Shown here one piece after another: positions 20,966-41,715 of a stretch of 64,000 nt of DNA. Each line of letters starts with the position of its first letter. The stretch's first letter is position 1. The notes under the pieces are model-generated. The model made no database searches, had not been told where the DNA came from, and saw only the letters and a list, made by a program, of their open reading frames with translations. A program made the translations under genes and the position numbers. The stretch covers positions 2,864,501-2,928,500 of the forward strand of contig NZ_CP029553.1 of the NCBI RefSeq assembly GCF_003173755.1. The letters are read 5' to 3'. Source of the DNA: Methylobacterium terrae. GTDB lineage: Bacteria > Pseudomonadota > Alphaproteobacteria > Rhizobiales > Beijerinckiaceae.

Positions 20966-21851
20966 TCAGCCCATCAGGAGGGCGATGTGCTCGGGGTTCG
21001 GCGCGGCCGTGCCCCACACCAGGCCGATCTCGTAGCGGACCTGGCGGTACCCGACGTAGCGGGCGACATCGAAGGCGATGCCGGAGAACGGGTCCACCAC
21101 GGTCTGGTGCTCGCCCATGTCGCCGCCCTTCGGCAGGGCCGGCGCCCGGGTGGCGAGCAGCAGCGCGTCCTGGGTGAATGCGACGTTCGGGGTGAACGAG
21201 TTGGCGATCGTCACCGAGTCGCCCGAGCCGTGGTCGAGGCGCAGGCCGGGGGACTGGAGCGTGATGGTGCCCGGGCCGGCGGTGCCGGTCGCCACGACGT
21301 AGCGGTTGGCGTCGCCGGCGAGCGTGATGACGTCGCCCGCCTTCACGGTGCCGGTGCCGGTGCCGAGCGTCAGGGTCTTGGTGCCGGCGGTGGCGGCGGC
21401 CGACAGCACGTAGCCGGTGCCGGTGCCCTTCACCACGGGCTTGATCGGCGGCGAGTAGCCGATGCCGAACCCGGTCACCTCGCCGACCTTACCGCGGCGC
21501 AGGGTCTCGTCGGTGCCCGCCTCGTTGACCTTGTAGAGGACGGACTGCCGGCCGCGCAGGTTCGCCATGGCGCCGCCGTTGACGACCATGGTGCGCGGGA
21601 GCGCCGGGGCGCCGTTCTCGTCGAGGATCTGCGCGGGGATCGCGAAGTCCGACAGGTCGCCGGCGGTGCCGAAGGGAGCGACGCCCGGGGTGCCGGCGGC
21701 GCGGGAGGCGTTGGCGGCGGCGATCACCGCCAGGTCCTGCTCGACCGCGTTCACGATCGTGCGGAACCCCTGCTGGAACTGCTGGGCGAGGATCGGGTCG
21801 ACACCGAAGCCGCCGTTCTCGAGGGCCAGCGTCTCCTCGCCGTTCCACTTG
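20966..21851 (-). pseudogene. Major coat protein (P22-like), C-terminal part cut off by the nested element
   Basis: Read from the att core, the frame continues KWNGEE-TLALENGGFGVDP and runs to ALLMG, 288 codons after the core. In its present state the only start is a GTG at 21754 (262 aa). GYSPPIKPVVKGTGTGYVLS begins an inserted beta-rich domain as in P22-type coat proteins; later come IANSFTPNVAFTQDALLLAT and SGIAFDVARYVGYRQVRYE. The missing N-terminus lies at 36853-37191. The two parts match end to end without loss. Confidence 0.88.
21834..21851. repeat. Attachment core, left copy
   Basis: The 18-bp sequence TCCTCGCCGTTCCACTTG is repeated exactly at 36911. To its left the coat gene continues; to its right comes element DNA and, 21 bp on, the 3' end of the integrase gene. 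On the minus strand it encodes the coat residues around KWNGEE. A short TGATACCC motif lies inside the element near both ends (21858 and 36824) and might be an arm-type site. Confidence 0.85.
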
Positions 21852-21872
21852 GTGTGCTGATACCCTTATTTT

Positions 21873-23066
21873 TCAGTCACTTGCGGGGTCTTGCGCAACT
21901 GGCGCGCATTTGGCGGGCGGCGGGAGTAGCGGGACCGTCAGCCGGGCGGCCATGCGCTCGATCGCGACGCTTCGGTGGTTCGCGGCCATCACCGGGTGCG
22001 CGTAGGTCTGCAAGGTGAGGTCGAACTTCCGGTGGCCCAGGATGCCGGCCACGTCCGGCAGCGACAGGCCGTTCTCGATCATCCAGCTGGCCGCGAAGTG
22101 CCGGCAGGCGTGGAAGCGGTGGCGGTCCTTGGCCTGGAACAGGCCCGCGCGCTTCAGCAGGCAGTGCCAGTTCCCGGTGTAGAACGCGGTCCGGCTGATA
22201 TGATTCCCTTCGCGCCCCCGGAAGACCAGCTTGCGCGGGTTCTCGATGTAGTATTGAGCAATCCACTCGCGGAGCAGGTCGAGGATGAAGCCCGGGACTG
22301 GCACGTCCCGCTTGCCGCTCTCCGTCTTCGGCGACTTGAGTTCATCGAAGTTCGTCAGGCTGTGCTGCACCCGGATCATGCTCTTGTCGAAATCGACGCA
22401 CGGCAGCGTCAAGCCGTTGATCTCCCCGAGCCGGAGGCCGCAGTAGGCGGCGAGGCAGACCCAGATCCGCGTCATCAGGTTGGGCCGGCGCTGGCCGCCC
22501 TTGCGGGGGTTGGCAGCTGTGTCTAGTAGCCTACGCATCTCCTCCAGGGTGAACGTGCGGATCGGGGTGTGCATGATCCCGCGCAGCTCGGTCATCGCAT
22601 CCTGGTAGATCGACACCTTTACTGCGCCACGGCGGCGGCCGAAATCGTACAGCGTGCCGAAATCCTTCACTCGCAACTTCGCGGTGAAAGGGGAAAGCCT
22701 GCCCCCACGCATCATTGAGCTGTAGAAATCAACGATTTCGTGCGCCTTGATCTCAGCTATTGGCCGGGGCCCAAAGTGCGGGATGATGTATAGGTCGCAC
22801 GCGGATTTTAGGGCGATGAAACGGGCGCGGCCGATGCGGCCATCCTTCAACCGGTCTTCCTGGTAGCGGATGAATAGCTCGGCAATCTCTTTAACGGTCC
22901 GAGCGTCTTTCTTCTCAACGTGGGTTCCCTCCGCTAATTCGTTCTCGACTTGCCTCGCGAAGTTGTCGGCATCCTTTTTCTTGTCAAAAGCCTTGCTGCG
23001 ATACTTGTCTCCGACCTTCCACCGGACTTGGTAGCCGTAGCCCGGTCGCTTCGTGACGCTCGCCAT
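21873..23066 (-). CDS. int: Tyrosine integrase of the nested element
   Basis: 397 aa; AGGAGG precedes the ATG. An N-terminal arm-binding region (about 1-60), a core-binding SAM-like domain (about 60-150) and a catalytic domain (about 165-365). Catalytic residues are visible: R212 in CGLRLGE, K247 in SPKTES, H319 and R322 in HACRHF, H345 in GHR and the nucleophile Y355 in TLQTYAHP. The stop lies 21 bp from the left att core, the typical int-att arrangement, so it most likely integrated this element in the coat gene. Confidence 0.95.
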   Translation of the reverse strand: MASVTKRPGYGYQVRWKVGDKYRSKAFDKKKDADNFARQVENELAEGTHVEKKDARTVKEIAELFIRYQEDRLKDGRIGRARFIALKSACDLYIIPHFGPRPIAEIKAHEIVDFYSSMMRGGRLSPFTAKLRVKDFGTLYDFGRRRGAVKVSIYQDAMTELRGIMHTPIRTFTLEEMRRLLDTAANPRKGGQRRPNLMTRIWVCLAAYCGLRLGEINGLTLPCVDFDKSMIRVQHSLTNFDELKSPKTESGKRDVPVPGFILDLLREWIAQYYIENPRKLVFRGREGNHISRTAFYTGNWHCLLKRAGLFQAKDRHRFHACRHFAASWMIENGLSLPDVAGILGHRKFDLTLQTYAHPVMAANHRSVAIERMAARLTVPLLPPPAKCAPVAQDPASD

Positions 23067-23114
23067 CTCGTCTGCCTCCTGTCGTGAGAGGCCCGGCCGT
23101 AGCCGGGCGGGAAA

Positions 23115-23672
23115 TCAGCGCGCGCCGCCGAGCGGCAGGACACCCTGCGCGGGCGGCTCGCCCATGCCGTCGACCCACGGCAGGCCGAGATGCCGCCACA
23201 GGCGCCCGGACGCTCGGGTGCCGAAGGTGCGACGCGCCTCGGTGACCATGGCGACGGCGAGGGCCTGCGGGACGGGCTCCCGAGCCTCCGCCGGGGAGGC
23301 GAGCGGGACGGGCCGGGCGCCGCCAGTGAAGGCGCTATGGAGCACGTCGTAGGCCTCGCGCTGGTAGGCCTGAACGCTCTCGCGCGTGGCGTCGTCGGGG
23401 ATGCGGCTGGTGTCGATCGTGAAGAACCAGCCGTGGAGCAGGTCGAGGCGGAGGCACGTCGCCTCCTGTGTCCCGCCCGGTCCGAAGGGTGTTGCCATGA
23501 CGGCAATCCCTTCCGACAGGATCGGGTCGCGCTTCAGCCGGCGGAACTGTGCGGACCAGTCGAGGCCCATCGCCTGGACGATCGGCTTGAGTGCGACGAA
23601 CACGGCATCGTCGCGCCGAAATCCGTAGAGCTCGGCGCCGCGGAATGTGACGGTGATGATCTGTCCCATCAT
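23115..23672 (-). CDS. Phage antirepressor (P22_AR_N-like)
   Basis: 185 aa. The N-terminal 120 residues fit the P22 antirepressor N-terminal domain: FRGAELYGFRRDDAVFVALK, PIVQAMGLDWSAQFRRLKRD and LRLDLLHGWFFTIDTSRIPD, then YQREAYDVLHSAF. Such proteins bind and inactivate phage repressors. The target could be the repressor of the outer prophage, which would link induction of the two elements; this is inference. It stands next to the integrase. Confidence 0.85.
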   Translation of the reverse strand: MMGQIITVTFRGAELYGFRRDDAVFVALKPIVQAMGLDWSAQFRRLKRDPILSEGIAVMATPFGPGGTQEATCLRLDLLHGWFFTIDTSRIPDDATRESVQAYQREAYDVLHSAFTGGARPVPLASPAEAREPVPQALAVAMVTEARRTFGTRASGRLWRHLGLPWVDGMGEPPAQGVLPLGGAR

Positions 23673-23695
23673 GGGGTCTCCTCAGATATGAGGAG

Positions 23696-23746
23696 GCCCG
23701 GCCGAGCCGGGGTATGCTCGGATCTGAGCACACCCCGCGGCCGGGC
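23696..23746. terminator. Long imperfect hairpin in the nested element
   Basis: GCCCGGCCG (23696-23704) pairs with 23738-23746, and GGGGT plus TGCTC pair inside it, making a nearly continuous stem around a 6-nt loop. It separates the antirepressor from the genes upstream. No U-tract is present, so it may attenuate rather than end transcription. A smaller hairpin with GCCCGGC arms lies at 23089-23106 before the integrase gene. Confidence 0.55.
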
Positions 23747-23753
23747 CGGGCTA

Positions 23754-23933
23754 TCAGGCCTTGAGGCCGAGGGCGGCGCGCTCAGCCGCCACAATGGACC
23801 GCGCCAGGGCGAGCCGGGCGTCAGCGAGGTCGCGGTAGGCGTCCGCCACAGCGTCGAGGCGCCGGGCGCGGGTCAGGCCCCGCCCTGCGAGCCACACCAG
23901 CAGCCGGGCGCGGAGGATGCGGGCGAGGGTCAT
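23754..23933 (-). CDS. Small basic protein, unknown function
   Basis: 59 aa, MTLARILRARLLVWLAGRGL at the start, then an Ala/Arg helix. The ATG overlaps the upstream stop (ATGA), so it is the last gene of a four-gene coupled set. The hydrophobic N-terminus might associate with membrane. No family recognised. Confidence 0.6.
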   Translation of the reverse strand: MTLARILRARLLVWLAGRGLTRARRLDAVADAYRDLADARLALARSIVAAERAALGLKA

Positions 23934-24406
23934 CGCCGGCTCCGGCGCGGCAGCGCCAGCCGCGGACCCTCGACGGCCGAAGCGAGTAGGCCCACAACGC
24001 GGCCTACCAGCTTCTCCTCGAGCATTCCGGGGCAGTACGGGCCGTCGCTCAGGCCCACCATGCGGCCTTCGTTGAGCCATTGATGCAGCTCGTCGAGGGA
24101 CCGCGGGCGCTGGTACGGGCAGGCCCACCATCGCACGTCCTCACCGGCAGGGGAGCGGTAGACCCGAAGGTTCGTCTGAACGATCCGATCCCGATAGCCC
24201 AAGTCGTAGACCGGGCTGCGGTAGCGGATCACGAACAGCTCGCCGTGGATGGGATCGCGGTCGACCGTGTCGATCACCGCGAACTCGCCGAGCCGGAGGT
24301 GCGGAGCGGCCTCGTTGTCAGCGACCGGATGCGCGATGCACCCGGCCGGCAGGCTGTCGAACAGCGGCAGGGCTCGCAGTTCCGTGAGGGTTGCTGGCAG
24401 CGTCAT
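23930..24406 (-). CDS. S24-like fold protein, unknown function
   Basis: 158 aa. APHLRLGEFAVIDTVDRDPI followed by HGELFVIRY resembles the beta core of S24/LexA-type C-terminal domains, but I see no convincing Ser-Lys pair and no HTH. It may be a repressor-domain relative used in regulation. The ATG overlaps the preceding stop. The call is weak beyond the fold resemblance. Confidence 0.65.
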   Translation of the reverse strand: MTLPATLTELRALPLFDSLPAGCIAHPVADNEAAPHLRLGEFAVIDTVDRDPIHGELFVIRYRSPVYDLGYRDRIVQTNLRVYRSPAGEDVRWWACPYQRPRSLDELHQWLNEGRMVGLSDGPYCPGMLEEKLVGRVVGLLASAVEGPRLALPRRSRR

Positions 24407-24768
24407 GCGATCAGCCCTCCCCAAGCCTTGTCGGCCTCGGGGTCCGTCAGCGGCACGCCGGCCGTGGACAGGATCACCGGTGCGCGCCACTGCGCCTCGG
24501 CCTGAGTGCGCTTCCAGTCCCGGAAATCATGGAAGTCGGACCCCGGGTTAATGCAGGGGACGAACGATCCGCGGTCGTTCTCCCACCCCATGCTGTAACG
24601 GACGGCGCGGGCCTCCATGTGCAGCCACGCGACATAGCTCGCCATCATGCCGCCGGTGAGCGGCACCGCGGCAGCCGTAGGGCTGCCGATGAGGGTGACC
24701 CCACCCCCGATCAGGGGAAGGGCCGTGAGGCCGCGCAGGAAGCCGCGACGGGACGCGGGACCGCTCAT
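24403..24768 (-). CDS. Tat-signal protein, unknown function
   Basis: 121 aa. The N-terminus SRRGFLRGLTALPLIGGG has the twin-arginine motif followed by a hydrophobic stretch, so export by Tat is likely. The rest is a small domain with MGWENDRGSFVPCINPGSDF. Coupled by ATGA overlaps to genes on both sides. No family recognised. Confidence 0.68.
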   Translation of the reverse strand: MSGPASRRGFLRGLTALPLIGGGVTLIGSPTAAAVPLTGGMMASYVAWLHMEARAVRYSMGWENDRGSFVPCINPGSDFHDFRDWKRTQAEAQWRAPVILSTAGVPLTDPEADKAWGGLIA

Positions 24769-25295
24769 CGCGCACCCCCGAAGTCCCGACCCGTCAGGTC
24801 AAGAAAGCGCATCCGCTGCTCGAAGTCGCCCATGGCATCGGCGATTCCGTTGTCGTCACCGGCCTCGCGGTCGTCGGTGCTGCCGGCCGCCCAACCGCGC
24901 TGGTCGGCGCCGTCCATCATACGGCGACCCCCGAAGCCCTCGAACCCGATGAGGTTCGGGTGGGGCAGCAGGGCGCCAAGGCTCGGCTCGTCGTCACCGC
25001 CGTCCTCCAGGTCCGCAGTGCCGTCGATCGCGTCGAGGATGGCGAGGTCCGCTTCGATGCGGTTGGCGATGCCCTCGCGGATCTCGCGGATGCGGTGCAG
25101 CTCGACGCACATCGCGTCGGACAAATCCACGGCCATGCCGGTGGCGGAGAAGTAGTGCTCCAGGCCCTCACGCAGCGCGGCGAGGGCGGGGTGCTCCGGC
25201 TCCGCGGCCTCAACGGCGCGCATGGTGCGGATAGCAGCAGTCACAGGCCCGCAACCCGCAGTATTGCGGCGCGGCTTCGAAGTATGGAAACCCAT
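24765..25295 (-). CDS. Acidic protein of unknown function
   Basis: 176 aa if the ATG at 25295 is used (weak GAGAG ahead); an ATG at 25223 is an alternative. It is acidic in the middle (DAIDGTADLEDGGDDEPSLG) and ends DLTGRDFGGAR. First gene of a coupled leftward set, so its promoter should lie in the divergent intergenic region to the right. No family recognised. Confidence 0.55.
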   Translation of the reverse strand: MGFHTSKPRRNTAGCGPVTAAIRTMRAVEAAEPEHPALAALREGLEHYFSATGMAVDLSDAMCVELHRIREIREGIANRIEADLAILDAIDGTADLEDGGDDEPSLGALLPHPNLIGFEGFGGRRMMDGADQRGWAAGSTDDREAGDDNGIADAMGDFEQRMRFLDLTGRDFGGAR

Positions 25296-25320
25296 GGTAG
25301 GTACTCTCTGGAAGTACCGG

Positions 25321-25354
25321 CTTGTCACGGCCGGGACGCGCATTCTTGTCACGG
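25321..25354. promoter_or_regulatory. Pair of CTTGTCACGG direct repeats in the divergent intergenic region
   Basis: Exact 10-mers start at 25321 and 25345, 24 bp apart, that is on nearly the same DNA face. They lie between the leftward operon and the structured RNA, so they may be a regulator binding site. No protein is assigned. Confidence 0.4.
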
Positions 25355-25424
25355 AACTTGCGTCTATTGTGCCAGCGAACGACACTGGCGCCGGGAGGGT
25401 GACAACACGCCCAGAGAACGTGCA

Positions 25425-25682
25425 CCGCAGCCTTTACCCGAAGGCTGTTGTATCGCCGCCCAGCTTTCGCTTGACGGTGCTGCGGTACTCCCGGCATAGT
25501 GAGCCGGTCGCGCTCACCGGGAGGTGGGCACGTCATTTACGGGGCTCTTTACCCGGCAAGGTGAAGGGCTTCCGCTCTGGACTGAGACGCCAACCCCGGC
25601 AAGGGTCCGTCTCGGGAGTTGTCACGCTCCACGAACTAGAATGCACGAAACCCCGCATCCGGCAAGATGGCGGGGTTTTCTG
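25425..25682 (+). ncRNA. Structured RNA with three identical CGGCAA hairpin loops and an intrinsic terminator
   Basis: Five hairpins in a row: CAGCCTT/AAGGCTG (25428-25447); CTCCCGG/CCGGGAG with an inner TGAGC/GCTCA (25488-25523); TTTACC/GGTGAA (25548-25565); GAGACG/CGTCTC with an inner ACCC/GGGT (25584-25613); and the terminator below. The last three each expose the same hexaloop CGGCAA closed by a C-G pair (loops at 25554, 25597 and 25660). No credible open frame covers the stretch. The repeated loop suggests binding of several copies of a protein or of a target RNA. The 5' end is not determined. Confidence 0.6.
25648..25682 (+). terminator. Intrinsic terminator of the structured RNA
   Basis: AAACCCCGC and GCGGGGTTT form a 9-bp stem followed by a short T-run (TTTT). 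The apical loop is CGGCAA, matching two upstream hairpins. It ends rightward transcription before the three-gene + strand cassette. Confidence 0.8.
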
Positions 25683-25809
25683 CTGCGTGCGGCATCGCGG
25701 AACAGCCCGATTGCCTCGACGTTCAGGCTTCGTGTACCCATAACGGGTAGCCGAGTCGTGTTCTAAGAATTGGATGCCCCTTGCCTGAAACCGTCCGGAC
25801 CTCGACAGT

Positions 25810-26091
25810 ATGAGCCTCTTCCTTGTCGCCGCTACAATTTCATCGGCGCCGCTTATCGAACAAGCGGTGAACGAGAAATATGCGAACGAGAACTATAGGC
25901 TTGAGCGCGGTCAGTGGATCGTTTCTGCGCATGGCATGACGGTGATGCAGGTCGCCAAGTCCTTGGGTATCGGCGAAGAAAATGCGCCCAATATGCTCGC
26001 TATCGTTGTCTTGATCGCGAACTATTGGGGTCGGCACGATCGCGACCTGTGGGAGTGGATGAAGATCAAACTCGAGGATCAGCATGGCTGA
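25810..26091 (+). CDS. Small protein of unknown function
   Basis: 93 aa. No cysteines; possible signal-like start (MSLFLVAATISSAPLI), then IVSAHGMTVMQVAKSLGIGE, which could be a small helical DNA- or protein-binding unit, and a Trp-rich end (ANYWGRHDRDLWEWMKIKLE). Its 3' end overlaps the next gene by 8 bp. Base composition is more AT-rich than the surrounding genes. No ribosome site is obvious. Confidence 0.6.
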   Translation: MSLFLVAATISSAPLIEQAVNEKYANENYRLERGQWIVSAHGMTVMQVAKSLGIGEENAPNMLAIVVLIANYWGRHDRDLWEWMKIKLEDQHG

Positions 26092-26563
26092 CCGTGACAG
26101 GCGGGACGCCACAACGCCTGAGAACTCGCGCCCATCCTCCACTCCTGAGGCGTTCGCGGCGCAGCGCCCGCTTGAGAATTTCATCGCAACAACGCTCAGC
26201 GAAATTCAGCAGGAGCAGGGGCGCCAAGCCGAGCGCTCGCTTGAGACAAACCGTAAGTTCGACGAGCTATACCGTCGTTTGGACAGGCTCTCCGACAAGC
26301 TCGACCAAATGCATTCGTCATCCACGTTGACCTCTGCCACTGTCAACCGTATCGAGCCCAAGGTCGAGTCACACGCAGATTCTTACAGCAAGCTCAGCGG
26401 AATGGTGAGCAGCACGCGGATTTTGCTGGGCATGGCCGCAACGATGCTTAGCGCGATCCTCATTGTGTTCTGGTGGACCAACTCCAGCAGGCTTGAGCGA
26501 CTGCTGAGAATTGTCGACAGCCCGGCAATCGCCAAAATTATCCAGCGCGAGAGCGGCAAGTAG
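26084..26563 (+). CDS. Coiled-coil membrane protein of unknown function
   Basis: 159 aa. A disordered start, a long coiled coil (about residues 30-105, with NRKFDELYRRLDRLSDKLDQ), then one membrane segment (about 112-132, ILLGMAATMLSAILIVFWW) and a short tail. This is an anchored coiled-coil layout, seen in spanin-like and in various phage membrane proteins; I cannot pick one. Translation is likely coupled to the preceding gene. Confidence 0.7.
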   Translation: MADRDRRDATTPENSRPSSTPEAFAAQRPLENFIATTLSEIQQEQGRQAERSLETNRKFDELYRRLDRLSDKLDQMHSSSTLTSATVNRIEPKVESHADSYSKLSGMVSSTRILLGMAATMLSAILIVFWWTNSSRLERLLRIVDSPAIAKIIQRESGK

Positions 26564-26567
26564 CGGA

Positions 26568-26765
26568 ATGCGCTACGCTCTCGCGGCCCTCGGCCTCCTG
26601 GCCCTCGCCATCTTCGCCATCGGCACGCAAGGGCCGTCCTCGCACTTCGGCGACACGCTGGTGACCGGCTGCCTGATCCTGGCCGCGGTCCTGCTGTCCG
26701 CCGCCGCGATCGTCAGCCGGCTCGACCGGGTGATTCGGCTGCTGAAGGATCACCGGCGGGACTAA
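26568..26765 (+). CDS. Small two-span membrane protein, holin-like in size
   Basis: 65 aa from the ATG 4 bp after the preceding stop. Two hydrophobic spans (ALAALGLLALAIFAIGT and LVTGCLILAAVLLSAAAIV) and a charged end (RVIRLLKDHRRD). Size and topology fit class II holins, but many small membrane proteins look so, and no endolysin is seen in the element. It overlaps the end of a convergent gene. Confidence 0.6.
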   Translation: MRYALAALGLLALAIFAIGTQGPSSHFGDTLVTGCLILAAVLLSAAAIVSRLDRVIRLLKDHRRD

Positions 26766-27049
26766 CGGGCGTCGTTTGCCGCGCGCAGCTGCGCCATGAT
26801 CTCCCGCAGCCGCCCGACGAACCCCACGAGCACACCGGCGCTCCAGGTCGTGATTTCGGCCGGAGGAATGCCGCCGGCTGCCAGCTCGGCGCGAGCCCGG
26901 GCGTTCATCTCGCCGAGCTCACGCACCAAGGCATCTTCCTCGGCCTCGGTGGGCACCTGGCCGCCGTATACCCGGGCGGCGCAGGTGTCGGCGTAGGCCC
27001 GGCCGCAGGCGATGCCCTCTCGCTGGGCAAGGGCGTGGCGCCCGTCCAT
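26762..27049 (-). CDS. Small protein downstream of tape measure, unknown function
   Basis: 95 aa, helical (ALVRELGEMNARARAELAAG). The ATG overlaps the stop of the element's tape measure gene. It is unlike the tail M-like gene at the same place in the outer prophage. Unknown function. Confidence 0.6.
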   Translation of the reverse strand: MDGRHALAQREGIACGRAYADTCAARVYGGQVPTEAEEDALVRELGEMNARARAELAAGGIPPAEITTWSAGVLVGFVGRLREIMAQLRAANDAR

Positions 27050-29787: not shown

Positions 29788-29798
29788 AGTCTATACTC

Positions 29799-30470
29799 CT
29801 ACTTGTCCGCGTCGGCTTCGATGACCTGCATGAAGTCTTCGAAGGCGTCACGGGTCATCCCGCTCGCCTCCTGCATCTCGTTCCGCACCACCGTCGCGAG
29901 GGCGGAGGCCCACTCGTAGTCCTCCTCCTGCGCCTCCAGGGCGGCGAGCGCCGGGCCGTGCTTGCGCTCGATCTCCGCCGCCTCGTGGCGCTCGCGGATC
30001 TCGTTCTGCTGATGCGGCAGGATGCCGGAGAGCAGGGCCGGCGCATCGATGATGGCGGAAGCGCCCTCCGGGTCCTCGGCGAGGGCGTAGGCCGCCGCGG
30101 TGCGCTCGCCGGGCGGCAGGCTGCGGAGGTAGGAGCGCATCTCCTGGCGCCGCATCTCGCCGATCGGGTCCGTGCGGTCGATCGGGGGCGGCTTGAACCC
30201 GGCGCGCTGCGCCTTGGCGTAGCCCTGCGCCTTCCGGAGCGGCCGGGTGACCGCGGCGAACCGCGGGGCGAAGTCGCCCTTCAGGTACTTCGACAGCTCG
30301 GCCCGCTGCCCCACCGGCGTCAGGTCCGGATTGCGACCGAGCTTCGTCGCCATCGCATGGAACTGCGCGGACATGTCGCCCGTCGTCTCGATCAGCCGTT
30401 TCAGGCTGTCGGTATAGGGTTGGTCCTGGCGAATACGGTTGAGCATCTGGTCTTTCAAATGTTCGTGCAT
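29799..30470 (-). CDS. Phage protein between terminase and tape measure, unknown function
   Basis: 223 aa from the ATG at 30470 with GAGGGAC ahead. It is charged and helical: MHEHLKDQMLNRIRQDQPYT at the start, MRRQEMRSYLRSLPPGERTA in the middle, and an acidic end (EDFMQVIEADADK). No catalytic motif. It sits where a portal and all head genes would normally be, directly after the large terminase gene, so it could be a fusion-point gene or a satellite-specific factor. Not recognised. Confidence 0.7.
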   Translation of the reverse strand: MHEHLKDQMLNRIRQDQPYTDSLKRLIETTGDMSAQFHAMATKLGRNPDLTPVGQRAELSKYLKGDFAPRFAAVTRPLRKAQGYAKAQRAGFKPPPIDRTDPIGEMRRQEMRSYLRSLPPGERTAAAYALAEDPEGASAIIDAPALLSGILPHQQNEIRERHEAAEIERKHGPALAALEAQEEDYEWASALATVVRNEMQEASGMTRDAFEDFMQVIEADADK

Positions 30471-30475
30471 GTCCC

Positions 30476-32017
30476 TCACCACGTAATCCAGCCGTTGCGT
30501 CGAGCCTCGTCCTCTGTGTAGAGGCCTTGAAGAATGTCGATCCGATACCGGGTGTCGTTGCGCGGATACTTGAAGCCGTCGCGGAACCATCCGGGGTCCG
30601 TCTCGGGGGCGCCGATCCAGCCGGCGGAGCGGGCGCGCACCTCGTCGACGAGGCCGAGCCGGATGTCGCGGAACCACCGCTCGTCGCGGTGCGGATAGGT
30701 CCAGCCGTCCCGGATCCAGTCCGGCGCCGGGCCGCGGTCCAGCTCGCTGCTGGTCCCGTAGCTGCCGAACGCCGCTGAGCCTCCGCCCTGGTTCACCACC
30801 GCGAGTTCGGTGATGGCCCACACCAGGGCGTCGACCCGGTCGGGCGAGTAGCCGGCCGTCGAGCGATTGAAGTCCGCCGTGAAGGCGCACATCTGGTCTT
30901 CGAGCGCTGTGAAGCTGCCGACGTGGTGCACCTTGTGCTGTTCGTAGAGGGCGGAGACCGGCTCGGCGCGCACCGCCTTGCCGCGGCTCGCCCGGACCTC
31001 ACGGAACGGCACGGCGGCATCCACCATCCGCACCGTCGCGCTCACCAGCTCGCCGCCGTTGTTGACCTCCGCCACGATCCGGTCGGCCTGGTGCCGCCGA
31101 TAGGCCGCCACCGCCAGCCGGGCCCAATCCAGGGGGCCGAGCCGCGCCGTCAGGTCGTCGAGGACGTAGACGTGGCCCGCCGCATCGAGGCCGGCGACGA
31201 TGATGCCCGTCTCGTCCGAGTTCTCCGTGTTCGTCACCGCCGGGTCGATCGCGACCACGATGCGGCGCAGGTCCTCCGGCGCGGCCGTCACCCGGTCCTG
31301 GTCGATCCATTCACGCTGCCACAGGGCGCCGGGCACGTCCTGCAGCAACTCGCCGTCGATCTCCTGCCGGCCGAGCCGGGTGCCGCCGTACCGCTTCTGG
31401 ATCGCGTCGATGAAGCTCGGGGCGAGGTTCGCCGCGTTGTCCATCGTCCGGCCGCGGGTGATCCGCACATCCGACCGGGCGAGCAGATCGCGGATGAGCC
31501 GCACCGGCTTCGGGGTGGTGGTGACGACGCACCGGGGCCGGCCGAGCCGCAGGCCGAACATCAGCATGTCCCAGGCCTCCGGGTAGCGCCACGCGCCGAG
31601 CTCGTCACACCACGCGCTGTCGTGCTCCGGGCCGCGCAGGCGCTCCGGCTCGTCGGCCGAGTAGGTCGAGGCTACCGCGCCGTTCGGCCAGGTCAGCCGG
31701 CGCTTCGACGGCTCGTATTCCGGCCGCATGTGCTTCGGGGCGATCGCCAGGAGCCCGGAGGGTCCCTCCACGATCACGTCGCGGGCGTCGGCCGCGGTCG
31801 CGGCCACCAGGGCGATGCGGCCGGCGCGGCGCTGCTGCACCTGCTCCTGCACCCACTCGGCGCCGGTGCGGGTCTTGCCCCAGCCGCGGCCAGCGAGGAT
31901 GAGCCACCCAAACCAGTCGCCGTCCGGCGCCAGCTGTTCGGGGCGGGCCTTCAGCCGCCAGGAGCCGCCGAGCGTCTCGCTCAGCCGGGCGAAGAGGGCG
32001 GCGTCACGCGCGGGCAT
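30476..32017 (-). CDS. terL: Large terminase of the nested element
   Basis: 513 aa. Walker A AGRGWGKT at 42-49, Walker B region SAWCDELGAW at 134-143, coupling motif TTTPKP at 167-172, nuclease acidic residues D258 (VVAIDPAVT), D268 (SDETG) and D396 (RVDALVWA). This fits the GTA/Terminase_6 type. After the nuclease domain comes GGGSAAFGSYGTSS, then two 37-38-residue repeats (431-468 and 475-511) of the pattern WxRDGxxYPxxDxRxxxDIxxGL...GWI, which are not part of a usual TerL. It overlaps the small terminase gene. Confidence 0.92.
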   Translation of the reverse strand: MPARDAALFARLSETLGGSWRLKARPEQLAPDGDWFGWLILAGRGWGKTRTGAEWVQEQVQQRRAGRIALVAATAADARDVIVEGPSGLLAIAPKHMRPEYEPSKRRLTWPNGAVASTYSADEPERLRGPEHDSAWCDELGAWRYPEAWDMLMFGLRLGRPRCVVTTTPKPVRLIRDLLARSDVRITRGRTMDNAANLAPSFIDAIQKRYGGTRLGRQEIDGELLQDVPGALWQREWIDQDRVTAAPEDLRRIVVAIDPAVTNTENSDETGIIVAGLDAAGHVYVLDDLTARLGPLDWARLAVAAYRRHQADRIVAEVNNGGELVSATVRMVDAAVPFREVRASRGKAVRAEPVSALYEQHKVHHVGSFTALEDQMCAFTADFNRSTAGYSPDRVDALVWAITELAVVNQGGGSAAFGSYGTSSELDRGPAPDWIRDGWTYPHRDERWFRDIRLGLVDEVRARSAGWIGAPETDPGWFRDGFKYPRNDTRYRIDILQGLYTEDEARRNGWITW

Positions 32018-32618
32018 CGATGAGCCTCGGCGGGGCTACCGGGGGCGGTGAATCGGGGCCGTCCGGCGTGTCGCCCTGAAGCTCGGCCAGCCCCTCCATC
32101 ACGTCGCGCAGGGCTGCCGGGTGGGGCGCGAGCCGGCGGATGAGCATCGCTTCGAGGTTCGCCATGAAGGGCGAGCCCATGAAGATGACCGCCTGGTTCG
32201 TGATGTTGGTGACCGTGGGCGTGTTCAGGATGTCACCGGTGAGCCGGCCGATCTCCCGGGACACGTCCGTGGCGGCCCGGGCGAGGTTGGCGGTGGCGTG
32301 CCGGTCGTTGCAGGCGGCGGCGGCCAGTAGCTGCTGCATCACCGTCATGCGGATGATGCCGAAGTGGTCGAGGAGCGAGCCGCCCTCCTTCGCCGCGCGG
32401 GCGGCCAGTTCCTCGAGCGGCACGTCGGCGGCGAGCGCGGCTTTGTAGTCGTCCGGCAGGCTCGCCATGTGCCGGGCGATGGCGTCCCGGTGCACGCCGT
32501 ACTTCGCCGCGATCCGGTCGAGGCTGACGCCGGCGATCCGGGATAGCTCGATGGCGAGCCGGTCCGGGTGCCGGGCGATCTGGCTGCGGCGCTCGCGCGG
32601 GGTCTTGGCGTCCGGCAT
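32004..32618 (-). CDS. Small terminase-like protein of the nested element
   Basis: 204 aa. An N-terminal helix-turn-helix (LSRIAGVSLDRIAAKYGVHR) and a central oligomerisation-type helical region (IIRMTVMQQLLAAAACNDRH), then VIFMGSPFMANLEAMLIRRL. Position just ahead of and overlapping terL supports a DNA-recognition subunit of the packaging motor. If so, the element picks its own packaging site. Confidence 0.75.
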   Translation of the reverse strand: MPDAKTPRERRSQIARHPDRLAIELSRIAGVSLDRIAAKYGVHRDAIARHMASLPDDYKAALAADVPLEELAARAAKEGGSLLDHFGIIRMTVMQQLLAAAACNDRHATANLARAATDVSREIGRLTGDILNTPTVTNITNQAVIFMGSPFMANLEAMLIRRLAPHPAALRDVMEGLAELQGDTPDGPDSPPPVAPPRLIDARA

Positions 32619-32621
32619 GGG

Positions 32622-32837
32622 TCAGATCTGCCGGGTGTGCGGGGGGTTGGTGCCGCGGTCGATGCCGACGCGGTGCTCGCGGGTGATCCGGTCGAACTCG
32701 GCGATGGGGAGGCCGATCCGCAGGCACCACTCGGCGCGCTCGGCCGGCTGGCCGGCGAAGATGGTGCCCGTCACCTCGACGAGGCGTTGGGTGGCGGCCG
32801 GGTCGGCAGCGCGAAGGGTGTCGTAGGTCGACGGCAT
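32622..32837 (-). CDS. Small phage protein, unknown function
   Basis: 71 aa from the ATG at 32837 (GGAG ahead); a start 14 codons earlier is possible. Features AGQPAERAEWCLRIGLPIAE and an end rich in charged residues. It precedes the small terminase gene by 4 bp. Not recognised. Confidence 0.55.
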   Translation of the reverse strand: MPSTYDTLRAADPAATQRLVEVTGTIFAGQPAERAEWCLRIGLPIAEFDRITREHRVGIDRGTNPPHTRQI

Positions 32838-32946
32838 GCGGAGGACTCCAGCGGCAGTCGTTGCCAGCTTGTGAGCCATCCAGCCCGTGCACCTGTCCCC
32901 ATCCAGGGCTCAGGCACGTCAAAGGTGGTGCGAAAACCTATCGCGG

Positions 32947-33591
32947 TCAAGAAGCGACGCGGTCGAGGATGCGGGCCACCGTCTTCATGTCCTTGCCCAC
33001 GGCCCGGCCGATGGCGCCGTAAGACTGGTTCTCGGCCCGCATCCGCTGCATCTCGCGGATCACCGCCTGCTCTTCCTCGTTCGCCACGAGCCGGCCGTCG
33101 ACCACGTTCCACCCGAAGGGCCGCTTGCCGCCGTTGTAGACGCCCTGCGCCGCCAGATGCCGCTTCACGTCCCGGATGCGCTCCCGGATCCGGTCGCGCT
33201 CGCTCTCGGCGACGGCCGACAGGATGGTGAAGACCAGCTTCGAGATGCCGTTGCCGCACACGTCGCCGCCCAGGTCGATCATGTGCAGCGCCACGCCCAG
33301 CGCCTTCATCTCTTCGAGGGTGCCGAGGGCGTCAGCGGCCGAGCGGAACATCCGGTCCAGCTTCGGGGTGATCACCACGTCGCCGCGGGCGAGCCTGCCG
33401 ACGAGGCGGGCGCCCTCCGGCCGCTCGGCGAGGGGGACGGAGCCCGACACGCCGGCCTCGACGTGAATGGCCGCCACCGTCCAGCCCTTCAGCGTCGCCC
33501 ACGCCTCCACCTGGCGTCGCTGCGTCTCCAGGCTCTCGCCGTTCGAGGCCTGCTCCGAGGTGCTGACGCGGATGTAGCCGAAGACTTTCAT
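32947..33591 (-). CDS. Serine recombinase / resolvase
   Basis: 214 aa. The N-terminal resolvase domain has YIRVSTSEQ with the nucleophile Ser at residue 10, then VVITPKLDRMFRSAADALGT and LSAVAESERDRIRERIRD, where the E helix starts. A C-terminal helix-turn-helix (YGAIGRAVGKDMKTVARILD) binds DNA. Small recombinases of this type resolve dimers or invert segments. I did not find inverted repeats that would mark an invertible segment; resolution of multimers produced by the adjacent RepA/iteron system is a reasonable guess. Confidence 0.9.
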   Translation of the reverse strand: MKVFGYIRVSTSEQASNGESLETQRRQVEAWATLKGWTVAAIHVEAGVSGSVPLAERPEGARLVGRLARGDVVITPKLDRMFRSAADALGTLEEMKALGVALHMIDLGGDVCGNGISKLVFTILSAVAESERDRIRERIRDVKRHLAAQGVYNGGKRPFGWNVVDGRLVANEEEQAVIREMQRMRAENQSYGAIGRAVGKDMKTVARILDRVAS

Positions 33592-33753
33592 GGGGGCGAC
33601 CGTATGGCGTTGCTACAGCACGGCCATAAGAACACGGCGCCATGAGGTATGCAAGGGGCGTAAGACCATGATGGGGCAGCCGAATTCGTCCGGGGTCCGT
33701 CGCGCGGGCTTTGGGACAGGGCGATGACCATGGCCGGGATCTGGTACACCCCC

Positions 33754-33859
33754 GTAGCGTAGCAAAACCGTAGCAACTCCGTAGCGACCGCTACGCGTAG
33801 CACTGTAGCGTAGCGTAGCCCCCTCTCTTAAAGAGGGGCTACTTGCTACGCCCTGCTAC
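33754..33859. repeat. GTAGC iteron cluster, candidate replication origin of the nested element
   Basis: Twelve copies of GTAGC or its complement GCTAC in 106 bp: eight forward and one inverted up to about 33819, then three inverted at 33839-33859. A hairpin with arms CCCCTCT/AGAGGGG at about 33820-33838 splits the array. The cluster lies just past the 3' end of the RepA-like gene. The outer prophage shows the same layout with a different iteron after its own primase-helicase gene. Confidence 0.65.
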
Positions 33860-34965
33860 GGGGTGCCTGCGGACCAGACGAGACCGTCTCTCTCGGCGAT
33901 GAGGGAGCGGGCTGTCAGCGCCTCGCGCAGGCGCTTGAAGGTGGCTCGGGGGTTCGTGTCCTCCGCCTCGATGACGCCCCGGGCGTGAAGCTCCTCCCGC
34001 CACCGCTCGACCGGCGCGGCCTTTAGGCCGCTGGGCAAGCCGAGTGCCGGCGGCGGCTCGCGCCCGTGGTTGAGCAGGCATTCGGCGAGGGCTGCCAACG
34101 CCAGCCGGTTGCGATCGGACAGCCGCCGGGCCGGGGCTTGCCGCGAGGGCGCCGCCCCCTCGATCTCGTCGACCACGCAGGAGGTGATAGCATCGCCCTC
34201 GTCGTCCCGCCCGACCTCGACCACACGCAGACGGCTCGCGACCGCCTCGCCCTCGGCGCCGTCCTTCATCCACTCCGTCGTGACCGTGACCACACCTTCG
34301 GCCGACTTCTTCACCGAGAGCAGGGCATCAACCGCGCCGCCGAGCGAGCTATGCCCACGCGGCCGATCGCCGGCGACGCCGCTGTGGTGCACGACGAGCA
34401 CCGTGCACCGTAGCGCGGCCTGCACCTGGGCGGCGGCGCGGATGAAGCGATTCATGTCCTCGTCGTCGTTCTCGCTGCCGGTGTAGGCCCGATTCAGCGT
34501 GTCGATGACGACGACGGCGGGGCCGCCTCCGTCCGGCAACTGCGCCTGCACCGAGGCGATGAAGTCGGCCACGTCGTTCACGAGCACGAGCGGTGTCGTC
34601 ATCAGGTAGAACGGCACCGGGCCGTGGTCCTCGGCGATGCGCTCCTGCCGGAAGGCCTCCACCCGGGCCGAGAAGCCGGCGACGCCCTCAAGCGCGCAGT
34701 AGACGACCGCGCCCTGCCGCACCCGCCGGCCCCGGTAGGCCCAGCCAAGGGCGACATGCATCGTCAGATCGAAGGTGAAGAACGACTTCCCCGACTTGGG
34801 CGCCCCGTAGATGGTCACCAGCGCCTCGCTCGGGATCATTCCGCGGACGATGTGCCTCTGGCCCTGCGTCATGGCCGTTCTCCCGAACTCGACGATCTGG
34901 AAGCGGATCTTCCGGGCGGCGCGCGGCTGGCGGCTCGCCAGGTACAGGATGTCCCGGCCCGTCAT
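33856..34965 (-). CDS. RepA-like AAA ATPase (replicative helicase type)
   Basis: 369 aa; AGGAGG precedes the ATG, which overlaps the upstream stop. Walker A GAPKSGKS at 54-61, Walker B VVVIDTLNR at about 151-159, then VLVVHHSG, the RecA-fold sensor region typical of RepA/KaiC-like phage and plasmid helicases. The C-terminal part is a winged-helix-like region (ARATFKRLREALTARSLIAE). It is a shorter relative of the ATPase half of the 662-aa protein of the outer phage. It probably opens the nearby iterons. Confidence 0.85.
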   Translation of the reverse strand: MTGRDILYLASRQPRAARKIRFQIVEFGRTAMTQGQRHIVRGMIPSEALVTIYGAPKSGKSFFTFDLTMHVALGWAYRGRRVRQGAVVYCALEGVAGFSARVEAFRQERIAEDHGPVPFYLMTTPLVLVNDVADFIASVQAQLPDGGGPAVVVIDTLNRAYTGSENDDEDMNRFIRAAAQVQAALRCTVLVVHHSGVAGDRPRGHSSLGGAVDALLSVKKSAEGVVTVTTEWMKDGAEGEAVASRLRVVEVGRDDEGDAITSCVVDEIEGAAPSRQAPARRLSDRNRLALAALAECLLNHGREPPPALGLPSGLKAAPVERWREELHARGVIEAEDTNPRATFKRLREALTARSLIAERDGLVWSAGTP

Positions 34966-35249
34966 CGGCGATCCTCCTGTGACCGCTCGGCGGGCGGCCC
35001 GATCGCCTCGGCGGTCCGGTGGAGCATGAGCGCCGCGCGCGTGCGCTCCAGCTCCTCGATGCCGGCGACCGTGGCGCGCAGGTAGGCGGCCATGCACCTC
35101 GAGGCGTAGAGCAAGCCCACGTCGTCCCCGATCTCGGCATAGGTCTCGACGAGCGAGGCTTGCACCCGAGCCGCGGCGGCGGTCCTTGCAAGAAATTCGC
35201 GCGCCGGTCCGGGCGAGCCGTGAGCGACCTCGCCGTCATGGTCAATCAT
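34962..35249 (-). CDS. Small protein upstream of RepA-like gene, unknown function
   Basis: 95 aa; AAGGAC precedes the ATG. It is a helical protein (ARVQASLVETYAEIGDDVGL, then GIEELERTRAALMLHRTAEA). The stop overlaps the RepA-like start, so it is the first gene of the replication unit. Unknown function. Confidence 0.6.
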   Translation of the reverse strand: MIDHDGEVAHGSPGPAREFLARTAAAARVQASLVETYAEIGDDVGLLYASRCMAAYLRATVAGIEELERTRAALMLHRTAEAIGPPAERSQEDRR

Positions 35250-35415
35250 GACAAGTCCTTGATGCTGCTGCACAAGTCGGCTTCTTATTTGCTGCTATTT
35301 CGCGTCAAGAATGACTTCGGATGGCACCCGATATTCAGTGCTTGCACTTTGAAGCGCGGCCACCATCTATGGTGCTGCAATCGTGCCTTACTCCCGCGAC
35401 CGAGGAATTTGTCGC
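35250..35415. promoter_or_regulatory. AT-rich divergent intergenic region
   Basis: Between the leftward replication unit and a rightward low-GC gene. A possible rightward promoter has TTGCAC at 35342 and TCTATG at 35366 with an 18-bp spacer. A leftward promoter for the RepA unit must also lie here, but I cannot place it. Confidence 0.4.
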
Positions 35416-35715
35416 ATGACCCGTTTCATTCTCAGTTACGATCTCGAAAAAACCAAACCTGATCCACACCCTGAGTTTTTGCGGCAAGCTGAAGCACTTG
35501 GTTGGAGTAAGTGGATCAAGTTGGCAGACGGAAAATTTAATAAACTTCCGAACACAACACTTCACAAGTCATTTGAAAATATCGAAGATGCTAATAAATC
35601 ATACAGCGATATTGTATCAAAAACTAAAGCGGCCCTTAATGCTACCGTCAATGTAGAAAAGGTCATTATAATCGAAGACAGTCGCTCGCGCTCTTTTAGT
35701 AACGAAGTCAAATAG
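35416..35715 (+). CDS. Low-GC cargo gene, possible VapD/Cas2-like fold
   Basis: 99 aa; GAGGAAT precedes the ATG. TRFILSYDLEKTKPDPHPEF at the start and VEKVIIIEDSRSRSFS at the end place two beta strands as in small ferredoxin-like proteins of the VapD/Cas2/SinR kind, and NKLPNTTLHKSF fits the central turn. The gene is strikingly AT-rich against its surroundings and stands alone on the + strand, so it was probably acquired separately. A toxin or defence role is possible; only the fold resemblance supports it. Confidence 0.65.
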   Translation: MTRFILSYDLEKTKPDPHPEFLRQAEALGWSKWIKLADGKFNKLPNTTLHKSFENIEDANKSYSDIVSKTKAALNATVNVEKVIIIEDSRSRSFSNEVK

Positions 35716-35980
35716 ATTTTGAGATATGGAGCCGGGCGTAGGTAGCGAGCACCCGCCGCCTATCGACCGGCTCCAACCTCGCGAGCGCGTCGACCGATTC
35801 GCGCAGCGCCCCGCCGTCGAACTCGGCCCGGTCCAGCAGCTCGGCGAGGTCCTGGCCGCGCGGCCCGCAGAGCACATGCACCAGGCCGCGCAGGCACCGC
35901 AGCCGGGCCCGCCGCTCGGCCGGCGACAGGTTGTCGGCCCACGGCCCGTAGCGGTCAGCCGGCGCGATCGGGGCCGTCAT
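35708..35980 (-). CDS. Small protein of unknown function
   Basis: 90 aa; GGAGG lies 5 bp ahead of the ATG at 35980. Helical (ERRARLRCLRGLVHVLCGPR; RESVDALARLEPVDRRRVLA). It overlaps the PC4-like gene at its start and the low-GC gene at its end. Not recognised. Confidence 0.6.
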   Translation of the reverse strand: MTAPIAPADRYGPWADNLSPAERRARLRCLRGLVHVLCGPRGQDLAELLDRAEFDGGALRESVDALARLEPVDRRRVLATYARLHISKSI

Positions 35981-36224
35981 CGGCACCTCCCTCGATCAAC
36001 CCCCGCTCGACCGCGAGCGCCTGGGCCTGCTGGAGCGCCACGATGACGGCCGGCAGCAGGTCCGGGCGGATCGCGACGCCCTTCGCGGTCGGCACCACGT
36101 CGCCGTCGCGGTTAGTCGCGAACACGCGCACGTCGGCCATCACCCGGCCGTGCATGTCGGCCAGCCGGACGGCGATCTGCTCGCGCTGGTTCTTCGGGAT
36201 CGTCGCGATGCGGGTTTCTTCCAT
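35955..36224 (-). CDS. PC4/p15-like ssDNA-binding protein
   Basis: 89 aa. The pattern IATIPKNQREQIAVRLADMH then ADVRVFATNRDGDVVPTAKG and VAIRPDLLPAVIVALQQAQ matches the transcriptional coactivator p15 (PC4) domain: curved beta sheet, TxKGVxLRPDLLP signature and a C-terminal helix. Bacterial and phage members bind ssDNA or melted promoters. It could help replication from the iterons or modulate host transcription. Confidence 0.75.
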   Translation of the reverse strand: MEETRIATIPKNQREQIAVRLADMHGRVMADVRVFATNRDGDVVPTAKGVAIRPDLLPAVIVALQQAQALAVERGLIEGGADDGPDRAG

Positions 36225-36314
36225 GGGGCTCCTCCGGGCATGGGGCCGCGGCCGGGCGCGGCGGCCCGCTGGCGGCGGTTCGAGGGTTGGGCGTGACGAG
36301 GGCGTGCGCGCCGG

Positions 36315-36530
36315 TTATCGGCCGTCCCTGGCCGTTCTGGCGGCCCGGGTGAGTGCGTCGGCAGCCTCGGCGTGAGCGCGACCGGCGAGCATCCCGGCCT
36401 GCACCATCTCGCCGTCCGTTGCGCCGGGCCACCGGCGGCGGATAGCGGCGTCGAGGTCGTGGCCGCTGAAGGCCTGCAGCGTCGGATCGTGGAGCATCGC
36501 GTCGGCGATGGCGGCGGGGCGGTCAGGCAC
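36315..36530 (-). CDS. Small protein of unknown function
   Basis: 71 aa. Helical, with LHDPTLQAFSGHDLDAAIRR and GATDGEMVQAGMLAGRAHAE. Its start overlaps the stop of the AlpA-like gene by 8 bp. Not recognised; operon partner of the regulator. Confidence 0.6.
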   Translation of the reverse strand: MPDRPAAIADAMLHDPTLQAFSGHDLDAAIRRRWPGATDGEMVQAGMLAGRAHAEAADALTRAARTARDGR

Positions 36531-36744
36531 GGGCGGCCCCAGCCTCTCGGCCTGCCGCTGCTTGCGCCGTGATCCAGCGGCGCACCTCCGTCCGCCGAGC
36601 GCAGACGGTTCGTCCGATCTTGAACGTGGGGAGGCCGTGCGCGTCCTTCAGGTGGTGCACCTGACGCACCTTCCACCCGAAGGCGCCGGCGATGGCCGGC
36701 ACCCCGTACAGCAGGTCATCATCGGGCTCGGCAGTAGTGGTCAT
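36523..36744 (-). CDS. AlpA/excisionase-like helix-turn-helix protein
   Basis: 73 aa; GGAGGGG precedes the ATG. The sequence LLYGVPAIAGAFGWKVRQVH, then HHLKDAHGLPTFKIGRTVCA is the winged-helix layout of AlpA/Xis proteins (helix pair, then a beta wing with FKIG). It lies near the right att core, opposite the integrase. In satellites and prophages such proteins direct excision or activate the integrase promoter. Confidence 0.78.
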   Translation of the reverse strand: MTTTAEPDDDLLYGVPAIAGAFGWKVRQVHHLKDAHGLPTFKIGRTVCARRTEVRRWITAQAAAGREAGAARA

Positions 36745-36854
36745 GGCTCCCCTCCATGCGCAACTCGTGCGCAACGGACGCGCCGCGAGGCGGTGTAAGT
36801 CAGTCGTAAGTCTTTGAATTCCTTGATACCCATCGTTGACGGCATCCAGGCACT

Positions 36855-36880
36855 AAAAAAGCCCCCAAGCGGGGGCTAAG
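36855..36880 (-). terminator. Intrinsic terminator at the right end of the nested element
   Basis: On the minus strand AGCCCCC, loop GCTT, GGGGGCT, then six T. It is oriented to stop leftward transcription that enters the element from the outer phage's coat gene, and it overlaps the end of the truncated coat frame. Confidence 0.85.
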
Positions 36881-36910
36881 TTATTCTCAGAACTCGCGAA
36901 AATCGGAACT

Positions 36911-36928
36911 TCCTCGCCGTTCCACTTG
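36911..36928. repeat. Attachment core, right copy
   Basis: Exact copy of the core at 21834. To its right lies the 5' part of the coat gene. To its left the reading frame runs 18 codons into element DNA before a stop. A GTAAGTC direct repeat at 36795 and 36806 and a TGATACCC motif at 36824 lie just inside this end and could be integrase or excisionase arm sites; that role is inference. Confidence 0.85.
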
Positions 36929-37191
36929 ATCGGGTACATCTTGGCCTTCGTCATCGTGATGTCGAAGGAGCCGAGCACCTGGTCGCCGTCGTTGGGCGGG
37001 ATGTTGCTGGGGACGATGTCCACGAGGCCGTTCTGCGGCACCGTGAACGCGGTGACGGTCTGGCCGAGCGCCGCGCGGCCGAACCCGCCGTTGTCGCGGG
37101 TCACGCCCGGGATGAAGCCGACGAATCCGCGGCTGACCACCGAGAGGTTCTGGTAGATCGGGGCAATCAGCTTGCCGAGGGTGTTGGCCAT

Positions 37192-38146: not shown

Positions 38147-38251
38147 GGGGTCCTCGGGGCATCCGCCCGCGTGTGGGGCCATCCGGCCCGGGCGCCGCGG
38201 CCCATCCAGGCACACGGCCGTATGCGGCGGCTGGTGAGCCGCCGGGATTGT

Positions 38252-41713: not shown

Positions 41714-41715
41714 CG

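Follow-up and report, generated by a model that had tools for sequence, protein, structure and literature searches.

The closest described counterparts of the element reported here are the helper-embedded phage-inducible chromosomal islands (HE-PICIs) of Tommasini, Mageeney and Williams (2023), comprising 491 cases at 14 sites in Enterobacteriaceae, with 11capE in prophage 50icd of Escherichia coli NRG857c as the prototype (PMC10111431). Excision after mitomycin C and replication were shown in E. coli, P22_AR_N was counted as part of the Bro network and, in the available part of that paper, phage surroundings are reported only among Enterobacterales, the top five hits per database having been examined (PMC10111431). 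We describe an element of this kind in the alphaproteobacterium Methylobacterium terrae, in a stretch of 64,000 nucleotides (NZ_CP029553.1, positions 2,864,501 to 2,928,500; G000:C1:2864501-2928500 in our own labelling, within a contig of 6,162,702 bp) that is referred to below as the window. There, the P22-type coat gene of a prophage, the helper, is interrupted by an element of 15,077 bp (21834-36910). Judged from its sequence, this element is very probably a phage satellite that was integrated into the helper coat gene by its own tyrosine integrase. The kind of element has already been described in the form of the HE-PICIs; what is added here is the separate group of integrases, mostly alphaproteobacterial where the host is named and with varied late-gene targets, to which it belongs, no description of which was found in the open-access literature, preprints excluded. 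In that literature, the term HE-PICI was met in PMC10111431 only.

The two pieces of the coat gene match abutting stretches of the same protein family, and the element between them is co-oriented with the gene that it interrupts. The N-terminal piece matches phrog_283, annotated as major head protein, at profile positions 1-93 (E = 8.8e-10) and gave no match in the Pfam scan, and the C-terminal piece matches phrog_283 at positions 102-383 (E = 2.9e-68) as well as P22_CoatProtein in Pfam. Identical copies of an 18-bp core, TCCTCGCCGTTCCACTTG, stand at both junctions, and these two are its only occurrences in the whole genome of 6,162,702 bp when up to two mismatches are allowed; a control pattern, the core read backwards, occurs once. 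Another genome of the genus (G005) encodes an intact coat protein of 388 residues to which both pieces align end-to-end, with 64.5% identity for the N piece (residues 1-93) and 71% for the C piece (residues 2-288), so that in the alignment the last column of the N piece is 96 and the first of the C piece is 98. The pieces were aligned separately, and the total of 382 codons is the figure of a preliminary description of this DNA. The G005 version of the core differs at 1 of 18 positions. That preliminary description had claimed a split coat gene with an 18-bp repeat at both junctions and an integrase beside one of them, all of which were recovered, and had proposed to look for an uninterrupted coat gene in related prophages, which G005 provides. 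Its statement that full coat protein requires precise excision is supported by the co-oriented insertion into a capsid gene together with a site-specific integrase. The idea that the attachment (att) cores fall on unusually conserved coat residues found no support (0.63 against a mean of 0.60, with 36% of windows as high).

Along the helper late genes, on the minus strand, the element reads as follows: core, terminator, excisionase-like gene, PC4-like gene, genes for an AAA_25 ATPase and a serine recombinase, those for the putative small and the large terminase subunit, a hypothetical gene, the tape measure gene, a trio of small plus-strand genes, hypothetical genes, the P22_AR_N antirepressor gene, the integrase gene and core (Table 1). 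The end with the excisionase-like gene is called the entry end below. Eighteen open reading frames (ORFs) of the element and the two coat pieces were scanned against Pfam and PHROGs, with small ORFs such as 32622-32879, 35708-35986 and 36315-36530 left out. None of the 18 scanned ORFs matched a portal, capsid, connector or tail-tube family in either database, and because the element holds a terminase and a tape measure without portal, capsid or any other tail family, it looks like a satellite rather than a second phage. The preliminary description was right to see a mobile element in the capsid gene of another phage, but its view of the guest as a phage in its own right is not upheld. An integrase and replication genes without a full structural set correspond to what generally defines a phage satellite, and no capsid-forming genes of its own, by which capsid-forming PICIs are recognised, were found among the element ORFs scanned. 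The AAA_25 ATPase matches only the helicase part of primase-helicase PHROGs. Rfam gave no match at gathering score in the window.

Table 1. Features of the satellite element and of the surrounding helper prophage, in window coordinates.
Feature	Position	Strand	Evidence and remarks
Helper large terminase, candidate	41716..43254	-	25% over 198 aa (E 1e-5) to satellite large terminase; G005 copy 91% identical
Helper portal, candidate	40136..41893	-	Position only: large ORF beside terminase
Helper head scaffolding protein	37346..38215	-	phrog_784; phrog_206 (scaffolding) E 2e-16
Helper coat gene, N-terminal part	36911..37191	-	93 codons; phrog_283 positions 1-93
18-bp att core, entry (xis) end of element	36911..36928	-	TCCTCGCCGTTCCACTTG
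Intrinsic terminator, predicted	36860..36877	-	Just inside entry end, oriented with helper late transcription
Excisionase-like small protein	36523..36774	-	Family F2; phrog_18541 (function unknown) E 8e-16, phrog_66 (excisionase) E 7e-5
PC4-like small protein	35955..36224	-	Family F4 (5/14 elements); PF02229 at cut-off
AAA_25 ATPase, probable replication helicase (RepA-like)	33856..35097	-	PF13481 E 4e-36
Serine recombinase, resolvase/invertase type	32947..33591	-	PF00239 E 4e-32
Putative small terminase subunit, satellite	32004..32618	-	Position beside large terminase; relatives in L036, L037 and G053 element
Large terminase subunit, satellite	30476..32017	-	PF03237 and PF17289, PHROGs
Satellite tape measure, 912 aa	27049..29787	-	PF06791, phrog_24; both ends resemble helper tape measure
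Three small overlapping ORFs	25810..26765	+	No or weak family matches
Antirepressor, P22_AR_N (Bro network)	23115..23672	-	PF10547 E 5e-28; phrog_524
Tyrosine integrase	21873..23066	-	PF00589, tree; 3' end toward coat C half; ends 21 bp from left core
18-bp att core, integrase end of element	21834..21851	-	TCCTCGCCGTTCCACTTG
Helper coat gene, C-terminal part	20966..21832	-	288 codons; phrog_283 102-383; P22_CoatProtein
Helper tape measure, 1167 aa	9946..13449	-	Similarity to satellite tape measure

The element has much in common with the HE-PICIs: a satellite lying co-oriented inside a helper late gene, often that of the capsid, a short core, an integrase group that repeatedly hits late genes, a Bro-network gene and copies of late genes of its own. 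This shared configuration, P22_AR_N gene included, is what would be expected of a true member of the Enterobacteriaceae clade. The window integrase, however, is only 20.6% identical (23 bits) to that of 11capE, and in a maximum-likelihood tree of 101 integrases the present group forms one clade of 78 rows (support 100/98), outside of which 11capE, P4 and the G167 integrase cluster together (100/92); bootstrap values of this tree are not fully settled, and 11capE, on a long branch, is the sole HE-PICI integrase included. The layout is reversed as well, with the integrase gene downstream by the coat C part and the xis-like gene upstream, whereas the HE-PICIs have the integrase gene, followed by one for an AlpA family excisionase, at the upstream end, and the 11capE integrase adjoins the N part. 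The doubled phage attachment site (attP) motif of the HE-PICIs, with core TGTATTGC, has no match in the window with up to three mismatches, and no terminator was found at the entry end of 11capE, whereas the mapped elements of the present group have one. Unlike the HE-PICIs, the window element and its counterpart in Methylobacterium terricola (G053) carry a terminase of their own, and the named hosts of the group are Alphaproteobacteria rather than Enterobacteriaceae. Because of the unrelated integrase, the reversed layout and the absence of the doubled motif, we place the element outside the HE-PICI clade, membership of which is the least probable of the alternatives considered here; it would work like an HE-PICI all the same. 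Another family of the order holds a similar terminase-bearing element (L036, G167:C1:5418001-5437000) whose integrase is of the 11capE/P4 type (28% identical to that of 11capE, 124 bits).

A small phage-like genome nested in another phage genome is also found in MZTP02 within SpaA1/BceA1; in the available part of that report, and unlike the window element, the authors found no integrase, and MZTP02 supplies virion and packaging genes (PMC3398947).

The closest proteins to the window integrase in a set of 5.8 billion sequences are 48% identical. Scans of genome contigs and viral contigs with the single sequence found nothing, which made an alignment-based search necessary, and an alignment of 34 integrases turned up 22 loci among named genomes and a further 42 among viral contigs. 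Three distant loci, L079-L081, which match part of the query at 25-41%, were left out. Of 62 integrases compared, the fragment L123 and 11 that nearly duplicated others were removed, which left 50 distinct ones, and for 48 of these the neighbouring gene could be read, the other two lying on contigs that end too soon. With target classes set by hand, 36 of the 48 lie inside a truncated helper late gene, a check of start codons having moved L108 (start intact) and L082 (at most about 17 profile positions missing) out of an original 38; the broken gene encodes the terminase in 12 cases, the portal in 8, the head protease in 4, the major head protein in 11 and a minor tail protein in 1. When 30 ORFs near the integrase 3' end, picked by hand among the nearest from 49 listed, were compared with PHROGs, 28 matched head-and-packaging families and one a minor tail family, and one had no match. 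Both halves of the broken gene were seen at nine loci. They occupy abutting PHROG positions in the window (1-93/102-383), L062 (63-186/184-276), L071 (182-453/443-673), L076 (608-676/670-981), L084 (49-143/138-267) and L100 (28-107/100-435), and were recognised through relatives in L070, L113 and L115.

The named genomes among the loci used are all from Alphaproteobacteria, apart from one record labelled only Proteobacteria, and include Methylobacterium, Methylorubrum, Sphingomonas, Sphingobium, Azospirillum, Devosia, Hansschlegelia, Faunimonas, Ochrobactrum and Brucella pituitosa. On the integrase tree at least 25 changes are required for seven preliminary target labels (L063, L070 and L112 were relabelled afterwards), compared with a mean of 29.8 for shuffled labels and an equally low number in 2 of 200; targets are thus weakly clustered and switch often. 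An 87.8-kb viral contig, IMGVR_UViG_2643221868_000001, holds two integrases of the group (L083 and L118) about 16 kb apart, and the second element seems to begin directly past the capsid remnant of the first. At L105, a second xis-like gene (7551-7817) and terminators right after the integrase suggest a tandem pair of satellites.

Genes next to other tyrosine recombinases served as a control. Forty ORFs located 3' of such recombinases, of which Methylobacterium supplied 28, other viral loci 5 and loci with a P22-type integrase 7, matched 32 PHROG families; none of the 25 listed among these 32 has a head, packaging or tail description, and 16 of them lack any description. The control loci came from scans with the helper integrase (6 loci), the L036 integrase (4) and P0039 (2), to which P22-integrase loci and Methylobacterium matches to PF00589 were added. 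The 40 ORFs are what was left of 49 once nine near-duplicates from P22-integrase loci had been removed; no ORF was obtained at L217, L221, L235 and L252, and at 5 of the 28 Methylobacterium loci (L228, L241, L242, L245 and L249) the neighbour is approximate, the frame picked differing from the integrase frame. A contig end lies within 300 bp of the integrase in 27 of 80 P22-type viral contigs as against 2 of 41 in the present group; the integrase of this group is internal to a phage. The large terminase proved a poor marker for the group, since most relatives hold a similar copy: 158 of 199 relatives' genomes contain one that matches that of the satellite at E <= 1e-60, those listed being 50-61% identical and mostly single-copy. 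This would fit a gene-transfer-agent-like cluster.

The M. terricola element (G053, also L078) is colinear with that of the window, with nine gene families in common in the same order, and sits in an unrelated putative head gene. The C part of that gene matches phrog_13692, a family without assigned function, at positions 69-490 and precedes a head-tail adaptor; its N part was recognised by the junction sequence only and has no PHROG match. Both this relative and the target counts bear on the possibility that a decayed prophage landed by chance in the coat gene of an older, dead prophage, the two now being immobile, as the lack of portal, capsid and tail-tube families among the scanned ORFs and the broken coat gene might suggest. 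The assigned genes, however, are open reading frames and the att cores are identical, a colinear relative occupies a different helper gene, and the number of relatives inside late genes is not accounted for by chance landing. We consider such a decayed pair very unlikely, if the least improbable of the alternatives.

In the prophages of comK, an instance of active lysogeny in which phages act as regulatory switches, gene function is restored by precise excision. The coat gene could likewise be under a domesticated switch benefiting the helper or the host cell, by which the helper times its own coat expression through excision, and the same-frame split and the short core, from which precise excision would restore the gene, are in keeping with this. 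In comparison with the comK switches, however, the target here is a phage late gene instead of a bacterial one, and the apparent beneficiary is the guest. Among relatives the targets vary often (on the tree and preliminary labels mentioned above), and the elements carry replication, capsid, terminase or tape measure genes of their own, as parasites do. A domesticated switch is for these reasons highly improbable.

Predicted intrinsic terminators of the group bear on helper transcription. With a search rule demanding a stem of 5 or more, no fewer than 4 G-C pairs and a T run, all 12 mapped elements (the window, G053, L062, L070, L071, L075, L076, L084, L091, L100, L113 and L117) have a terminator that starts no more than about 110 bp from the entry junction, some of these junctions being located to tens of bases, and 0 or 1 occur elsewhere per element. 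At less certain entry ends, taken as the 330 bp before the xis-like gene, 6 of 8 have one (L061, L067, L073, L105, L115 and L118, that of L118 being weak). Control windows of helper DNA contain a terminator in 28 of 2502 cases, and one is present within 160 bp downstream of the integrase in 2 of 49. In the window, the 51 nt surrounding the terminator fold at -19.2 kcal/mol, which 8 of 200 shuffles equal. The evidence for these predicted terminators is their position and not the number of sites. Their presence at the entry end of all 12 mapped elements is a new observation, absent from the E. coli prototype. With a terminator just inside the entry end, integration should stop helper late transcription and leave the downstream helper genes open to satellite transcription. 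The hairpin would lie 3' of the integrase and attP in the excised circle, an arrangement akin to that of the tI/sib region in lambda.

Gene families, defined as linked groups of BLAST matches, were compared across 14 elements for which both ends were estimated. The integrase is present in all 14, the xis-like family F2 in 11, family F3 in 9 and the PC4-like family F4 in 5; F3 is not found in the window element, and its one scanned member, in L062, is a major head protein. A primase, one of the replication genes of the HE-PICIs, is present in L075. Satellite and helper capsids are 47-51% identical in L075, L113 and L117. Tape measures occur, besides the window, in L061, L062, L070 (weak), L091, L100, L113 and L117. 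Four composites have the tape measures of both satellite and helper in view, and in each the two resemble one another. In the window they share 41.7% identity in the C-terminal part (345 aa) and 33% in the N-terminal part (441 aa); the corresponding values are 47% over 209 and 32% over 282 in L113, 31% over 277 in L100 and 75.5% over its length in L117. In L113 and L100 the N part of the satellite tape measure is closer to that of another helper. A satellite tape measure that replaces the helper's in chimeric tails has been described for PLE11, and putative tape-measure genes were listed for further satellites (PMC12987554). The PLE11-like satellites thus resemble the present ones in having their own tape measure, while the available part of that report does not mention a location inside helper genes (PMC12987554).

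A third tape measure of the M. terrae genome, at G000:C1:5767087-5770143 (L051/L052), is 57.9% identical to that of the satellite over 796 aa and has an integrase nearby at 5758359, so that this locus is possibly a further satellite or a prophage. A related tape measure is also encoded on NZ_CP089300.1 (L050), a 35-kb plasmid of Methylobacterium currus, together with toprim and AAA replication genes and ParA; nothing in its gene table, which is incomplete, is annotated as capsid, portal or terminase, and it may be a satellite living as a plasmid.

From these features we infer the following course of events. In the integrated state no full coat protein would be made and helper late transcription would halt at the entry terminator, so that helper particles are blocked. 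Upon induction the helper repressor would be inactivated, perhaps through the satellite antirepressor, and Int and Xis would excise the satellite at the core, making the coat gene whole again. The helper would then supply shells and tails, the satellite terminase would package satellite DNA into the shells, and the tails would take up the satellite tape measure. The circle formed by excision would have the terminator directly downstream of the integrase gene and attP, where satellite transcription would normally end; integration would shift this terminator upstream, leaving satellite transcription free to enter the helper tail genes. Such a cycle would allow the guest to veto or time the particle production of its helper, as the preliminary description had suggested. 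Since relatives repeatedly break the particle-building genes of other prophages, these satellites probably keep their host viruses captive for as long as they stay integrated. It is possible, and we put this forward tentatively, that Alphaproteobacteria have an integrase clade of helper-embedded satellites, the second of its kind and of independent origin, which captures the helper late operon: each insertion would break a head, packaging or tail gene and silence what lies downstream with the satellite's own terminator, and the satellite would drive the downstream helper genes by an unterminated transcript and supply its own form of one or two particle parts (terminase, capsid, tape measure).

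Several observations weigh against the reading of the element as a satellite that controls its helper in this manner. The excisionase is a weak family call, with no Pfam match at E 0.05, and family scans of the putative small terminase subunit of the satellite gave no match. Eight of the 48 integrases (L064, L082, L086, L094, L096, L108, L112 and L116) adjoin a head-module gene without demonstrated truncation, and four (L060, L072, L105 and L119) have no target class. Some assignments depend on short remnants, such as that of L092 (25 residues, E 4e-5), and L075 and L117 were assigned from the N part alone, which stops 14-21 profile positions earlier than in an intact relative. The terminator is missing at two of the eight less certain entry ends (L082 and L087), and although a general scanner reports the window hairpin, it finds 6 terminator-like sites in the region as against 7.7 in shuffles, which is no excess. 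The portal and large terminase of the helper are candidates by position or similarity. A role of satellite tape measures in shortening the tails was considered and abandoned, as their lengths are not uniformly below those of the helper (912 against 1167 in the window but 906 against 686 in L113), which argues against simple tail shortening.

Beyond the genes listed in Table 1, the helper region also holds a head morphogenesis protein, a primase/helicase and RecE/RecT-like genes. A tyrosine recombinase at G000:C1:2933933-2935219, outside the window, is probably the helper integrase. A phosphoadenosine phosphosulfate reductase-like gene lies in the helper region at window positions 62383-63570.

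If the proposed reading is true, satellites came to break helper late genes on two or more separate occasions, using unrelated integrases, and late-gene breakage would be a general satellite strategy and not an enterobacterial oddity. Through the entry terminator, control of the helper in cis would have a simple mechanism that can be tested. There is also a consequence for prophage annotation, since some alphaproteobacterial prophages that look 'defective', their capsid, portal or terminase gene being broken, may be intact helpers in the grip of a satellite.

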